The notes beneath the pieces were generated by a model, which saw only the letters and a program-made list of their open reading frames with translations, was not told the origin of the DNA and did no database searches. The translations under genes were made by a program, and so were the position numbers. A stretch of DNA of 64,000 nt from Sphingomonas sp. BGYR3 (lineage in GTDB: Bacteria > Pseudomonadota > Alphaproteobacteria > Sphingomonadales > Sphingomonadaceae), in the NCBI RefSeq assembly GCF_025153455.1, contig NZ_JANZNT010000001.1, positions 1,560,001-1,624,000 on the forward strand. The letters are read 5' to 3'. Within the stretch, counting starts at the first letter, position 1; every line of letters starts with the position of its first letter. Shown piece by piece: positions 30,169 through 34,883 of this stretch.

Positions 30169-30813
30169 CTACCACCGGATCAGCCGGGGCACCGCGATCC
30201 GCCCGGCGACCGCGCTCGCCGTCACCGCCGCGCCGTACCAGATCGCGATGTAATGCACCGAGTTCTCGCCGCAGTGCAGGCTATAGGCCAGCGTGCCGAA
30301 CGCACCCGCCGCCAGCCCGGTCAGCCATCCCGCCCGCGCCGGATTGACCACCGCTCCCTGCCTCAGCCACAGGATCATCGCCGTGCCGATGGCCAGTGCA
30401 CCCGACAGGCTCAGCCTCAGGCAGTCGCGCGCCGCGCCGTTCATCACCGCTTCCATCGGCACCCGGCCCTCGTCGATCATGCCGATGATGCTGGCCAGCG
30501 GGAACAGCAGCGCCGCCGCCAGCATCCACATCCATCCGCGCTGCGCGCCTCCGATCGCCGGCCGCGCCATCGCCGTCACTGCCTTCAGCGTGGCAAGGCC
30601 CAGCAGCAACAGCGTGCCCGACCGCAGCACGACGATGGGCAGCGGCCGCATCGCCGCGATATCGGCCCGGATGCCGCTGGTCAGCGCGATGATCACCGCC
30701 ACGGCGGCCGCCAGCATCAGCCCCAGCATCATCCCCTGCCCCGGCCGCATCCGCCGGACGGGGGTCAGCCCGTCGACCAGTGTCTCGATGTTCAACGCCT
30801 CACGCATCGTCAC
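30169..30813 (-). CDS. nrsF: NrsF-type anti-sigma factor (DUF1109)
   Basis: The 214-residue inner-membrane protein has six predicted helices and belongs to the NrsF/DUF1109 family, which sequesters SigF-type ECF sigma factors. Two cysteines fall at residues 131 (AARDCLRL) and 181 (SLHCGENSVHYIAIWYG), the positions I recall as conserved and needed for signalling in Caulobacter NrsF. The reaction of these thiols with heavy metals or oxidants is thought to release the sigma factor. Its start overlaps the end of sigF by 4 bases (30810-30813), so sigma and anti-sigma are made together. Confidence 0.9.
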   Translation of the reverse strand: MTMREALNIETLVDGLTPVRRMRPGQGMMLGLMLAAAVAVIIALTSGIRADIAAMRPLPIVVLRSGTLLLLGLATLKAVTAMARPAIGGAQRGWMWMLAAALLFPLASIIGMIDEGRVPMEAVMNGAARDCLRLSLSGALAIGTAMILWLRQGAVVNPARAGWLTGLAAGAFGTLAYSLHCGENSVHYIAIWYGAAVTASAVAGRIAVPRLIRW

Positions 30814-31334
30814 TCGCTCTCGATCAGTATGGCGAGCCGTTTCAGCCCGCGATGGATGTTCACCTTGACCAGCGGCACGGACTGGCCCGCCTGTTCGGCG
30901 GCCTCCGCGACCGACAGGCCGTCGATCTTGACCAGCCGGATCGCCAGCGCCTGGCCGGGGGGCAGCATCGCCAGCAACCGGTCGATGCCGATCGCGGCCA
31001 TCACCGCCTCCTCATGGTCCGCCACCGACAGGTCGGCGGGCAATTCGGTTTCGTCGGCGCGATAGCTGCGCCGCAACTGATCGACCCAGCGATAGCGCGC
31101 GATCGCAGCCAGCCACGGCAGATACGGGCGCGCCGGGTCGTATGTCGCCCGCTTGCGGTGCACGGACATCAGCGTCTCCTGCACCAGGTCGTCGAGCAGC
31201 GCGGGCGCGATCCGCCGCGCGAAATACCGCTCCAGCCAGCGCTGGCTGGCCATCAGCACATCCCGATACGCTGCCTTGTCGCCGCCCTGCGCCAGCGCCA
31301 TCAGCCGCGCCAGCGTCTCGTCATCGGCGGTCAT
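30810..31334 (-). CDS. sigF: ECF sigma factor SigF
   Basis: The 174-residue ECF sigma factor has region 2 (DDLVQETLMSVHRKRATYDP and PWLAAIARYRWVDQLRR) and region 4 (LPPGQALAIRLVKIDGLSVAEAAEQAGQSVPLVKVNIHRGLKRL). There is no additional domain. It is paired with nrsF downstream by a 4-base overlap. Its start lies 39 bases from a GTAACC-N16-CGAA element on its own strand (31373-31398), the pattern I recall for Caulobacter SigF promoters, so autoregulation is likely. A matching element faces the opposite way towards the thioredoxin gene. Confidence 0.93.
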   Translation of the reverse strand: MTADDETLARLMALAQGGDKAAYRDVLMASQRWLERYFARRIAPALLDDLVQETLMSVHRKRATYDPARPYLPWLAAIARYRWVDQLRRSYRADETELPADLSVADHEEAVMAAIGIDRLLAMLPPGQALAIRLVKIDGLSVAEAAEQAGQSVPLVKVNIHRGLKRLAILIESE

Positions 31335-31372
31335 CGGTATTCCATGGTCCGTATTCGATCAGTCGCACGCCA

Positions 31373-31398
31373 TTCGGCCGCATCGCCGGATCGGTTAC
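31373..31398 (-). promoter_or_regulatory. SigF-type promoter of sigF-nrsF
   Basis: Read on the minus strand, GTAACC (31398-31393) and CGAA (31376-31373) are separated by exactly 16 bases. This equals the -35/-10 pattern I recall for Caulobacter SigF-dependent promoters. It ends 39 bases before the sigF ATG. Confidence 0.75.
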
Positions 31399-31435
31399 AG
31401 CGCCGGGGGAAACGGCCTGTTTCCATCCCGTGCCG

Positions 31436-31461
31436 GTAACTTTCCGCGAATCCCGACCGAA
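31436..31461 (+). promoter_or_regulatory. SigF-type promoter of thioredoxin-ccdA
   Basis: GTAACT (31436-31441) and CGAA (31458-31461) are separated by exactly 16 bases, the same arrangement as the divergent sigF promoter. It lies 55 bases upstream of the thioredoxin-like gene and points to it. Confidence 0.72.
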
Positions 31462-31515
31462 CTGCCGGTCAGCGCACCCGGATGGCGGGATGACGCACCC
31501 GTCCGGAGACAGAAG

Positions 31516-31932
31516 ATGAAAGCCCCTCTGATCGCCGCCGCGCTTGGCGTGGCGGGTACCGCCGCACTGCCTGCGCTGTTCGCCTCGCCCGTCGCTGCAG
31601 CCCCGGCGGTTGCGCCCCGCCCCTTTACCCAGGCCGCGTTCGATGCGGCAAAGCGCGCGGGCAAGCCGATCCTGATCGACGTTCATGCCCCCTGGTGCCC
31701 CGTCTGCGCTGCACAGCAAAAGGTGATCGCCTCCGTCACTGCCGATCCCCGCTACAAGGATCTCGTGATCCTGCGCGTCGATTATGACACGCAGAAACCG
31801 GTGTGGAAGGCATTGGGCGCGCAAAAGCAATCGACCCTGATCGGCTATCGCGGTGCCAGCGAAACCGGTCGCCTCGCCTATACCGCCGACCCGGAAAAAG
31901 TCCGCGCCGTCATCGCCGGCACGGTGGGCTGA
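31516..31932 (+). CDS. Exported thioredoxin-family protein (CPVC)
   Basis: The 138-residue protein starts at the ATG at 31516 after GGAGACAGAAG. A signal peptide of about 29 residues leads to a thioredoxin fold with the active site APWCPVCAAQQ (Cys 61 and 64). The pattern GKPILIDVHAPWCPVC is close to the soluble domain of DsbD and to DUF953-like thioredoxins. It should sit in the periplasm as a thiol reductant. The gene is 3 bases before ccdA, whose product can pass electrons to such a domain. Together they look like a split DsbD. The likely SigF promoter upstream ties it to thiol or metal stress. Confidence 0.88.
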   Translation: MKAPLIAAALGVAGTAALPALFASPVAAAPAVAPRPFTQAAFDAAKRAGKPILIDVHAPWCPVCAAQQKVIASVTADPRYKDLVILRVDYDTQKPVWKALGAQKQSTLIGYRGASETGRLAYTADPEKVRAVIAGTVG

Positions 31933-31935
31933 TCG

Positions 31936-32661
31936 ATGGCAAGCGGCCTTAATCCCCTGCTCGGCTATGCGGCGGGCGCACTCACGATCCTGTCGCCCTG
32001 CGTCCTCCCGCTGGTGCCCATCGTGCTGGGCGGCGCGGCACAGGCCGGGCGGCTGGGGCCGCTTGCGCTGGCCGGCGGGCTGGTCGTCTCGTTCACCGGC
32101 ACCGGCTTCCTGCTGGCGACGGCAGGCGTATCGGCCGGGCTGGACGGCGATCTGTTCCGCCTGTCCGGCGCGCTGATGCTGGCGCTGTTCGGCCTGTTCC
32201 TGCTCGTGCCCCGTGCCCAGGCTGTGCTGGCGACGGCGGCCGGGCCGCTTTCCGGCTGGGCAAGCGATCGACAGGCGGGCCTTGAACAGCGGGGCCTTGC
32301 CGGACAGGCGGCGATCGGCGTGCTGCTCGGCCTGGTCTGGAGCCCCTGCGTCGGCCCAACGCTTGGCGCGGCAACCCTGCTTGCGGCGCAGGGGGACAGC
32401 CTTGGCGCGGTCGCGGCCGTCATGTTCGCCTTCGGTCTCGGCATCGCCAGCGTGCTCGTCCTCATCGCCGTTGCCGGGCAAAGCGTCATGGCGCGCTGGC
32501 GCGGGCGGCTGATGGGGGCGGGTTCCGGTGGCCGCCGCGTGCTCGGCTGGCTGCTGCTCGGCGTCGGGCTGGCGATCCTGACCGGCCTCGACAAGGCGCT
32601 CGAATCGGCGATCATCGCGATCTCACCCGACTGGCTGATCGCCGCCTCCTCCTCGATCTGA
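31936..32661 (+). CDS. ccdA: CcdA/DsbD-type transmembrane thiol reductase
   Basis: The 241-residue membrane protein has six or more helices. It carries the two redox-active Cys-Pro motifs of the CcdA/DsbD-beta family, LSPCVLPLVPI (Cys 22) and WSPCVGPTLGA (Cys 138). These carry electrons from cytoplasmic thioredoxin across the membrane. The partner would be the periplasmic thioredoxin encoded 3 bases upstream. The last 39 bases of the gene overlap the convergent phospholipase-D-like gene (32623-32661). Confidence 0.92.
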   Translation: MASGLNPLLGYAAGALTILSPCVLPLVPIVLGGAAQAGRLGPLALAGGLVVSFTGTGFLLATAGVSAGLDGDLFRLSGALMLALFGLFLLVPRAQAVLATAAGPLSGWASDRQAGLEQRGLAGQAAIGVLLGLVWSPCVGPTLGAATLLAAQGDSLGAVAAVMFAFGLGIASVLVLIAVAGQSVMARWRGRLMGAGSGGRRVLGWLLLGVGLAILTGLDKALESAIIAISPDWLIAASSSI

Positions 32662-33840
32662 GCGGGACAGGCGGGCGCGCGTGCGCTCGCCCCACCCGAC
32701 CAGCCGCCGCGACACGATGGGGTCCAGCACGCTCATCCCGAAATAGGCGATGGCCTGCCCGATCCGGCGGGGCAGCGTGGATCGCGCCTTGTGCATCGCC
32801 GCCGTCACCTCCGCCGAATCGGCAACCTCACCGTCGATATAGGCGCGGACATGGGCGGCAAACGCCGCATCCTCGATGCGCAGCATCACCTCAAGGTTCA
32901 GGAACAGGCTGCGGAAATCGAAATTGGCCGATCCGATATGCACCGCATCGTCGATGACCAGCAATTTGGTGTGCAGCTTGGTCCGCCGATATTCAAAGAT
33001 CCGCACCCCCCGCCGCAGCAGCCCGGCATAGGTAAAGCGCGACGCCCAGATCGCGGCCCAGTTGTCGGTGACGGACGGCAGGACGATGCGGACCCGGCCC
33101 CGCCTGCCCGCCTTGCCCAGCCGTCGCAGCATCCCCGGACCCGGCGCGAAATAGGCCGCGATCATGTCCACCCGCCTTGCCCGCCGCATCCCGCGTTTCA
33201 CCATCCGCGCCCAGGGGGACAGCCGCCGCGTCGGCCCGCCCATCAGCCAGCGGACCGCCCCCTGCGGCTCGCTCCAGTCGGCCAGCAGCCGGTTCAGCGC
33301 CCGGATCGGCGCACGCGGCCGGGCGGTCCATTCGGCGAGCCCCGCGAAATAATCGGCCAGCCGCGCCGCCGCCGGCCCCTCGACCCACAGGCCCAGGTCG
33401 CGCCACGCGCCCTTGTCGGCCAGCCCGAAATAATCCGCCTTGATGTTGAACCCGCCGACGATCACCCGCGCCCGGTCGGCAATCGCGAACTTCTGATGAT
33501 TGCGCAGCAGGTATTTGCGGCCCAGCTTGGGGATGAACAACCGAACCACGCCGCCCGCCGCGATCAGCGGGCGAAAGAAATCACGGTCCGCTGCCGGATC
33601 GCTGCCCAGGCCATCGACGATCAGCGTCACGGCCACGCCCCGCCCGGCCGCGCGCACCATCGCGTTCAGCACCGCCGCGCCCGCATCGTCCGGCTCGTAA
33701 ATGTAATACAGCACGTCCAGCCGCTCGCTGGCCCCATCGATCAGGTCGATCAGCGCGGCATAGCGGCGCGGGCCGGTATCCAGCAGGCGCAGCCGATGCC
33801 CCGCCACCACGAACTCCGGCTGCTCCGGCGGCTCGGTCAT
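32623..33840 (-). CDS. Phospholipase D/cardiolipin synthase-like protein
   Basis: The 405-residue protein has two HKD motifs, [19 protein letters not shown] (His about 115) and [21 protein letters not shown] (His about 290), as required for one PLD-superfamily active site. The order and spacing match bacterial cardiolipin synthases, but the N-terminal membrane helices of ClsA are missing, so it is more like ClsB/YbhO or a related phosphatidyltransferase. The ATG at 33840 overlaps the recF stop by 4 bases, so it is translationally coupled to recF. The product probably works at the inner membrane on phosphatidylglycerol. Confidence 0.87.
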
Positions 33841-34883
33841 CCCCCGATCCGCACCCAGCTTGCCTGATCGCCCAGCATGGCGAATGGCGCGGTTTCCGTC
33901 CCCGTCATCCACACCTGCCCCCGCCCGGCCAGCCGCTCGAACAAAGCGGCGCGCGCATGGGGGTCCAGGTGCGCCGCCACCTCGTCCAGCAACAGAACCG
34001 GCGGCGCGCCCCGCCGTTCCTCGACCAGCGCGGCATGGCCCAGCATGATCGACAGCAGCAGCGCCTTTTGCTCGCCGGTCGAACAATTCGCCGCCGCCTG
34101 CCCCTTGCCCAGATGGGTGACGGAAAGGTCGACCCGGTGCGGCCCCTCGATCGCGCGGCCCGCCGCCGCATCGCGCGCCCGCCCGCGCCGCAGGATCGCG
34201 GCCAGGTCCGCTTGGCTGTCCCATCCCTCCAGCACCGCCGACATCGCCGGAAACCGGTCGGCCGGTGCCTCAGCCAGCCGCTCGCCCAGCATCGCCACCG
34301 TCGCTGTCCGCGCCGCGTGAACCGCCCGGCCATGCTCGGCCATCCGCGCCTCCAGCGCATCCAGCCATTGCGGATCGGCCGGCCGCTCGTCCGCCAGCAA
34401 CCGCCCGCGCTGGCGCATCGCCGCCTCGTACCGCGTCACCTCCGTCCCGTGGCGCGGGGCCAGCGCCAGCGTCAGCCGGTCCAGAAACCGCCGCCGCTCC
34501 GATGCCGCCTCGACGAACAACCGGTCCATCGCCGGGGTCAGCCACAGGACGCTCAGCCATTCGGCCAGCGCGGCGGCGGGCGCATTGGCCCCGTTCACGC
34601 GCACGATCCGGCGTTCGGGCGCACTGGCCGCCGTGCCGGTGCCGACCCGCGTCCCGCCATCCAGTTCGGCGGTCACCGCGAAATTGCCCGGCCCCCCGTC
34701 GCGCGCCATGGCGGACAGCGCGGCCCGGCGCAGCCCCCGGCCGGGCGCAAACAGGCTCACCGCCTCCAGCACATTGGTCTTGCCCGCGCCATTGTCGCCG
34801 GTCAGCACGACGAACCCGGCACCGGGATCCAGGTCCAGCGCGGCATGATTGCGAAAATCGGTCAGGGTCAGGCGGGACAGCAC
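33837..34883 (-). CDS. recF: DNA replication/repair protein RecF
   Basis: The 348-residue SMC-like ATPase helps load RecA at single-strand gaps. Walker A is in [21 protein letters not shown] (about residues 26-46), the ABC signature is [16 protein letters not shown], and Walker B is [14 protein letters not shown]. The coiled arm between is short, as usual for RecF. The opening [19 protein letters not shown] is typical. It is coupled by a 4-base overlap to the PLD-like gene and is not next to dnaN or gyrB. Confidence 0.95.

Follow-up and report, generated by a model that had tools for sequence, protein, structure and literature searches.

An ECF16 (SigF/NrsF) stress switch in Sphingomonas and a divergent thioredoxin-CcdA operon that probably serves exported methionine sulfoxide reductases

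The window, i.e. the whole stretch of 64,000 nucleotides from Sphingomonas sp. BGYR3 analysed here, contains two divergent gene pairs, each headed by a SigF-type element:

30169..30813, minus strand: nrsF, six-helix membrane anti-sigma factor with C131 and C181 (PF06532, E = 4.6e-42; helices from AlphaFold2)
30810..31334, minus strand: sigF, ECF16-type sigma factor (Pfam Sigma70_r2 and Sigma70_r4_2)
31373-31398, minus strand: SigF-type element GTAACC-N16-CGAA of sigF-nrsF, 38 bp before the sigF ATG (31334)
31436-31461, plus strand: SigF-type element GTAACT-N16-CGAA of trx-ccdA, 54 bp before the thioredoxin ATG (31516)
31516..31932, plus strand: trx, exported thioredoxin with CPVC at residues 61-64 (Pfam Thioredoxin_7 and Thioredoxin; signal peptide called by eye)
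31936..32661, plus strand: ccdA, membrane electron transporter with C22 and C138 (DsbD_TM, E = 4e-10)

The frames of sigF and nrsF overlap by 4 bp. The locus displays the features of ECF16 SigF/NrsF systems, namely, a sigma factor containing regions 2 and 4, encoded together with an NrsF/DUF1109 anti-sigma factor in one operon, GTAAC-N16-CGAA sequences at the putative target promoters, its own included, and a conserved cysteine pair on a six-helix protein, predicted to lie on the periplasmic side. Scoring 51.2 bits against the NCBIfam equivalog AntiSigF_NrsF (NF042994; cut-off 300 bits), the window NrsF is a member of the wider Pfam family and stands outside the Caulobacter equivalog. The closest solved chain to the ccdA product by sequence is CcdA 5vkv (E = 2.4e-11), and the combination of a DsbD_TM membrane protein having a single cysteine pair with a periplasmic thioredoxin corresponds to a CcdA/DsbD-type relay. 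A gene of the phospholipase D/cardiolipin synthase type (window 32623-34224) is convergent with ccdA and overlaps its end by 39 bp.

The original prediction proposed divergent SigF promoters with 16-bp spacers and 37 bp between the -35 hexamers, and the window sequence confirms all of these. GTAACY-N15-17-CGAA matches the 64 kb at these two sites only. In 100 shuffles of the 64 kb the mean number of matches was 0.15 and two matches were never obtained (0/100), while the motif turned up in both orientations in none of 20,000 Markov-generated sequences as long as the 181-bp intergenic region. Genome-wide (3.12 Mb) there are 8 matches to GTAACB-N16-CGWA and 40 to the pattern read backwards, i.e. 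there is no enrichment over the reversed control. Since the pattern is commoner when reversed, the motif alone is no proof of a promoter, and genome-wide counting was dropped as such a proof; the case for the two promoters rests on their position and conservation in sequence comparisons. The same count favours a reading in which the elements are fortuitous or serve a different sigma factor and trx-ccdA is a constitutive housekeeping relay, e.g. for cytochrome c maturation.

The family sample comprised 149 genomes, from which 86 NrsF places and 16 CcdA places were fetched. NrsF is present in 75 of the 149, a count that includes G051 (below the curated cut-off) and a few fragment matches. A sigF homologue adjoins nrsF in 83 of the 86 loci; the other three gave no sigF-nrsF pair by profile and were excluded from the 83. 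Window-type CcdA (E ≤ 1e-15) was found in 18 genomes and retained in 16, with G043 and G077 set aside because their similarity (33-34% identity) falls within a 572-aa DsbD-like frame. NrsF occurs in 15 of these 16 genomes compared with 75/149 overall (Fisher p = 2.6e-4, uncorrected for kinship). In the 15, GTAACC/T-N15/16-CG[A/T/G]A precedes every trx-ccdA site (17/17, the window included and three belonging to G140), although it lies about 500 bp upstream in L154 and the G007 copy of ccdA has a broken frame. The sole genome of the 16 without NrsF, G055, has trx-ccdA at a single site, and no SigF-type element was found upstream of it. At the sigF side, 42 of the 83 loci have such an element ahead of sigF (N16 spacer, no more than one mismatch in GTAAC/CGAA), and elements in both orientations are present at 12 of the 83, the window among them; in 9 of the 11 other two-orientation loci a gene of the DUF2282 cluster stands behind an element within the locus. 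In G114, trx-ccdA is followed by a gene for an AhpC/TSA peroxiredoxin (L154:3432-3953), a possible thiol-dependent client.

The genus was surveyed by a DNA search of 101 genomes, which is insensitive at this divergence; in the 20 stretches fetched, the element is present at all nine ccdA sites, seven of them with trx alongside. Looking for the paired elements in other sphingomonads, as had been suggested, we found them kept in Sphingomonas sp. AX6 and S. baiyangensis, together with the divergent arrangement. Eight of eight Dyella loci have trx and ccdA pointing away from each other, the paired elements lying between them; judging by these sequences, gene order changed and the elements went along with the genes. 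The distance between the -35 hexamers is 37 bp in the window, 25 and 14 bp in two Sphingomonas and 2 to 48 bp in the eight Dyella loci. The mirror-image spacing emphasized in the original prediction is thus not conserved among relatives, and mirror geometry was dropped as a functional feature. A contig labelled Candidatus Eremiobacteraeota (L326) displays divergent trx and ccdA and several neighbour gene families as in Dyella, and is probably a mis-binned Dyella contig.

Among the best 80 of at least 453 named ccdA loci, the element occurs within 500 bp upstream in 49, compared with 1/80 for the reversed pattern, looked for at N16 only. These loci partly repeat the sampled genomes (L332/G197, L381/G005, L328/G123), so that the tallies overlap in part. 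With one relaxed pattern used for both and up to 300 bp upstream, the numbers for the same best 80 are 50/80 against 1/80 reversed, the remaining 30 having no such element within that distance; the relaxed pattern is antisense in 13/80, the divergent Dyella sites being part of these. Random 300-bp pieces of the named loci contain the relaxed element in 63 of 1600 cases, far from the 50/80 upstream of trx-ccdA. Position, conservation across genera and the missing element in the NrsF-less genome all argue against chance or another sigma factor, a reading that we regard as highly improbable despite the 8 versus 40 whole-genome count. By contrast, the proposed autoregulation of SigF gains support, and its control of trx-ccdA strong support, from comparison of the elements and their conservation, and SigF would be expected to act likewise in BGYR3.

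What else SigF may control was approached through 158 elements in the fetched loci, the overlapping L078 and L158-L160 being excluded and 30 of the 158 sites having no called downstream gene. The downstream genes fall into clusters, named from one representative each: sigF (32 loci), DUF2282 (26), DoxX (16), Trx (12), DUF692 (7), DUF1223 (7) and smaller groups. A DUF1223 protein, L107:9254-9937, whose cluster follows a SigF-type element in 7 family loci, carries a CSSC motif and what looks like a signal peptide. In the genome of BGYR3, the exported MsrB gene is preceded by the one-mismatch sequence GCAACC-N16-CGAA, 35 bp before the start, and the exported MsrA gene by GAAACC-N16-CGAA, also with one mismatch, 60 bp before the start; the genes for their two cytosolic paralogues have no site at the one-mismatch level. 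Across 32 genomes, with exported enzymes told from cytosolic ones by a simple hydrophobicity rule rather than by a signal peptide predictor, the site is found at 13/23 exported versus 2/26 cytosolic MsrB genes (p = 4e-4), but at only 5/24 exported versus 1/34 cytosolic MsrA genes (p = 0.07), which counts against the Msr reading. Over all 107 Msr genes, the reversed pattern occurs 4 times and the antisense one twice. These tallies exclude 11/60 MsrB and 2/60 MsrA loci unrecognised by the search string, and 13 of the 133 places surveyed had no locus. In G011, trx-ccdA, msrB, msrA and sigF-nrsF are all in one cluster.

Behind an exact GTAACC-N16-CGAA at G000:C1:2128160-2128185 (L162:3161-3186) lie genes for cytochrome b561 (PF01292), a PF00174 molybdenum oxidoreductase and a PF02353 cyclopropane synthase, a run that is probably another operon under SigF. 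GTAACG-N16-CGAA at G000:C1:2184826-2184851 (L019:1501-1526, minus strand) lies 18 bp before a gene with the FGE-sulfatase/DinB_2 architecture, which we take to be that of EgtB-type ergothioneine enzymes; the gene is a possible further thiol-related target. The remaining N16 sites considered in the genome of BGYR3, one overlapping a frame end before ribosomal protein S16, one 117 bp before the gene of a NO VEIN C-terminal domain protein and two within longer frames, are likely due to chance.

Pairing CcdA with a periplasmic thioredoxin is an established way of bringing electrons to the periplasm, and both MsrA and MsrB depend on a reductant. Because a SigF-type element is common to both, recycling of exported Msr enzymes is the most economical role for trx-ccdA here. 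We consider it likely that the locus is an ECF16 stress switch whose divergent target operon, exported thioredoxin plus CcdA, serves this recycling. Envelope stress would target NrsF, its periplasmic cysteines C181 and C131 being the probable site, and so release SigF. Freed SigF would then drive transcription of sigF-nrsF and trx-ccdA, of the exported MsrA and MsrB genes and of the cytochrome b561-molybdenum oxidoreductase operon. CcdA would pass cytoplasmic electrons to the exported thioredoxin, which in turn would recycle the exported methionine sulfoxide reductases; that electrons flow this way, that they end at the Msr enzymes and that envelope stress is the trigger are our inferences. 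Exported MsrB is found in genomes both with and without trx-ccdA, so co-occurrence cannot single out MsrB as the substrate, and it was dropped as a substrate test.

The closest precedent is EcfF/OsrA of Bradyrhizobium japonicum, where, in the available parts of the paper (PMC3420878), an ECF16 sigma factor, a two-cysteine six-helix anti-sigma factor and a GTAAC promoter motif are likewise described, the ecfF transcription start lying about 6 nt after the -10 element. Its regulon contains three Met-sulfoxide reductases together with a DsbD-core/periplasmic thioredoxin pair. In the ecfF-osrA mutant, bll1027 (DsbD-core) is down 15-fold and bll1026 (periplasmic thioredoxin) 20-fold, whereas in the osrA mutant bll1026 is up 92.4-fold and bll1027 89.5-fold, the two strongest rises in the table (PMC3420878, as far as available). 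The authors speculated that this pair feeds Blr7043, and by analogy we read trx-ccdA as supplying electrons for a SigF-induced repair of methionine sulfoxide in the periplasm. The tags of the Bradyrhizobium pair, a putative counterpart of that in the window, place it by ecfQ (bll1028) and away from ecfF (blr3038) and suggest the reverse gene order, whereas the window pair is divergent from sigF and shares one intergenic region with it (PMC3420878, same parts).

Other systems are alike in part. According to the accessible text on Caulobacter crescentus (PMC3511200), SigF/NrsF there has the sigF-nrsF operon, GTAACC-N16-CGAA sites, C131/C181 and a molybdenum oxidoreductase target, with SigF-type promoters at both sigF and the adjoining CC3254 operon. 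However, the latter consists of DUF2282/DUF692/DUF2063/DoxX genes, the place of which is taken by trx-ccdA in the window, and a word search of that paper found neither CcdA nor DsbD. In Brucella, the ECF16 pair BcrS/AbcS governs an HOCl-induced operon for defence against methionine oxidation, as the text available describes, but the operon is bcrXQP and the word thioredoxin is absent from the paper (PMC8315932). The msrAB-ccdA-eTrx locus of Fusobacterium combines CcdA and an extracytoplasmic thioredoxin with a Met-sulfoxide reductase in an oxidative stress locus, but, in the part of the source seen, the cluster contains the two-component system ModRS rather than an ECF sigma factor (PMC12288474).

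The signal itself may differ from that in Caulobacter. A heavy-metal signal was taken over in the original prediction from that organism, where it holds. The SigF regulon there consists mostly of bufferin-type genes (PMC3511200; bufferin naming, PMC12452194; both in the portions available), while a search of the genome of BGYR3 gave no DUF2282 match, and oxidants are therefore at least as likely a signal here. Diamide and peroxides raised the two tested Caulobacter genes no more than twofold according to the accessible text (PMC3511200), which makes a simple thiol-oxidation switch less likely.

The cysteines of NrsF bear on another role of the relay, favoured in the original prediction, in which the exported thioredoxin mainly resets the sensor, reducing C131/C181 and restoring SigF binding as negative feedback. 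NrsF has no cysteines other than these two, and the conservation proposed for them is borne out: 86 of the 88 distinct NrsF homologues compared carry both (alignment of 92 rows, four duplicating a sequence, with six matches below 100 bits and the overlapping stretch L078 left out). In the AlphaFold2 model (mean pLDDT 76.7), C181 falls in the loop joining TM5 and TM6 and C131 close to where TM4 begins (positions 180 and 130 in the numbering of the model). Helix alternation in the model places the two on one side of the membrane, which would be the periplasmic one, in agreement with the available text of the Caulobacter paper (PMC3511200). The model had no match in the PDB at E ≤ 0.001, and a profile search of solved structures gave two matches, the better with E = 0.0084, both to unrelated molecules. 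With the cysteines on the same side, a reset of NrsF by thioredoxin is spatially possible; trx-ccdA also adjoins sigF-nrsF in several different arrangements, and C179 of OsrA is required for release on H2O2 (PMC3420878, as far as its text is available). However, 60 of the 75 NrsF genomes in the family sample have no window-type CcdA at E ≤ 1e-15, so that a reset is not needed as the main role, although another DsbD could serve in them, and G055 carries trx-ccdA but no NrsF. The weak response of the tested Caulobacter SigF genes to diamide also speaks against a reset. Moreover, cysteine mutants disagree: in Caulobacter, C to S changes in NrsF, C181S included, raise SigF targets, whereas OsrA C179S stays off (PMC3511200 and PMC3420878, in the parts at hand), a conflict that weighs against the redox logic of a reset. 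Papers naming both NrsF and thioredoxin describe, in their available parts, no action of one on the other, and among open-access texts we found no paper on thioredoxin acting on NrsF. Together with the Msr sites, the genomes without window-type CcdA and G055 leave a sensor reset without support as the main function, and we consider it unlikely. We are similarly doubtful of a self-resetting redox switch, in which the relay would recycle exported Msr and also reduce C131/C181, timing its own shut-off.

Neighbouring genes raise yet another role, namely, that Trx-CcdA serves copper/bufferin chemistry instead of Msr, keeping bufferin or metal-site cysteines reduced. Near the best 80 of at least 453 named ccdA loci, DUF692 is present in 12, DUF2063 in 12 and DUF2282 in 9 (families checked on one representative each), and in G123 (L158:5155-7245) a SigF-type element heads an apparent bufA-doxX-ccdA-trx run, bufA and doxX being assigned by eye. 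In addition, Caulobacter SigF is copper-induced and its mutant copper-sensitive. Bufferin-type genes by trx-ccdA were seen in L158, L321, L322, L328, L336, L369, L383 and others, so the substrate may vary or be wider. However, the lack of a DUF2282 match in the genome of BGYR3 argues that this class of bufferin is not the role here, and 8 of the 12 DUF692 loci fall among the 30 without a nearby element; in those 8, trx-ccdA may lie within a longer operon or outside SigF control. We therefore regard a copper/bufferin role as quite improbable and retain recycling of exported Msr as the preferred function.

The kind of system is known; what the comparison adds is the divergent layout, how widely it occurs and the control genome lacking NrsF, and no paper on a trx-ccdA/sigF-nrsF arrangement in sphingomonads was found among open-access texts. 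The comparison names candidate sphingomonad targets, i.e. exported MsrA and MsrB and the cytochrome b561-molybdenum oxidoreductase operon, and includes a natural control, as G055, alone in the sample in having trx-ccdA without NrsF, has no element either. Taken together, the results indicate that a coupling between the sensing of envelope stress and a dedicated periplasmic electron supply is widespread in ECF16 regulons, the measured case found in the literature being Bradyrhizobium.
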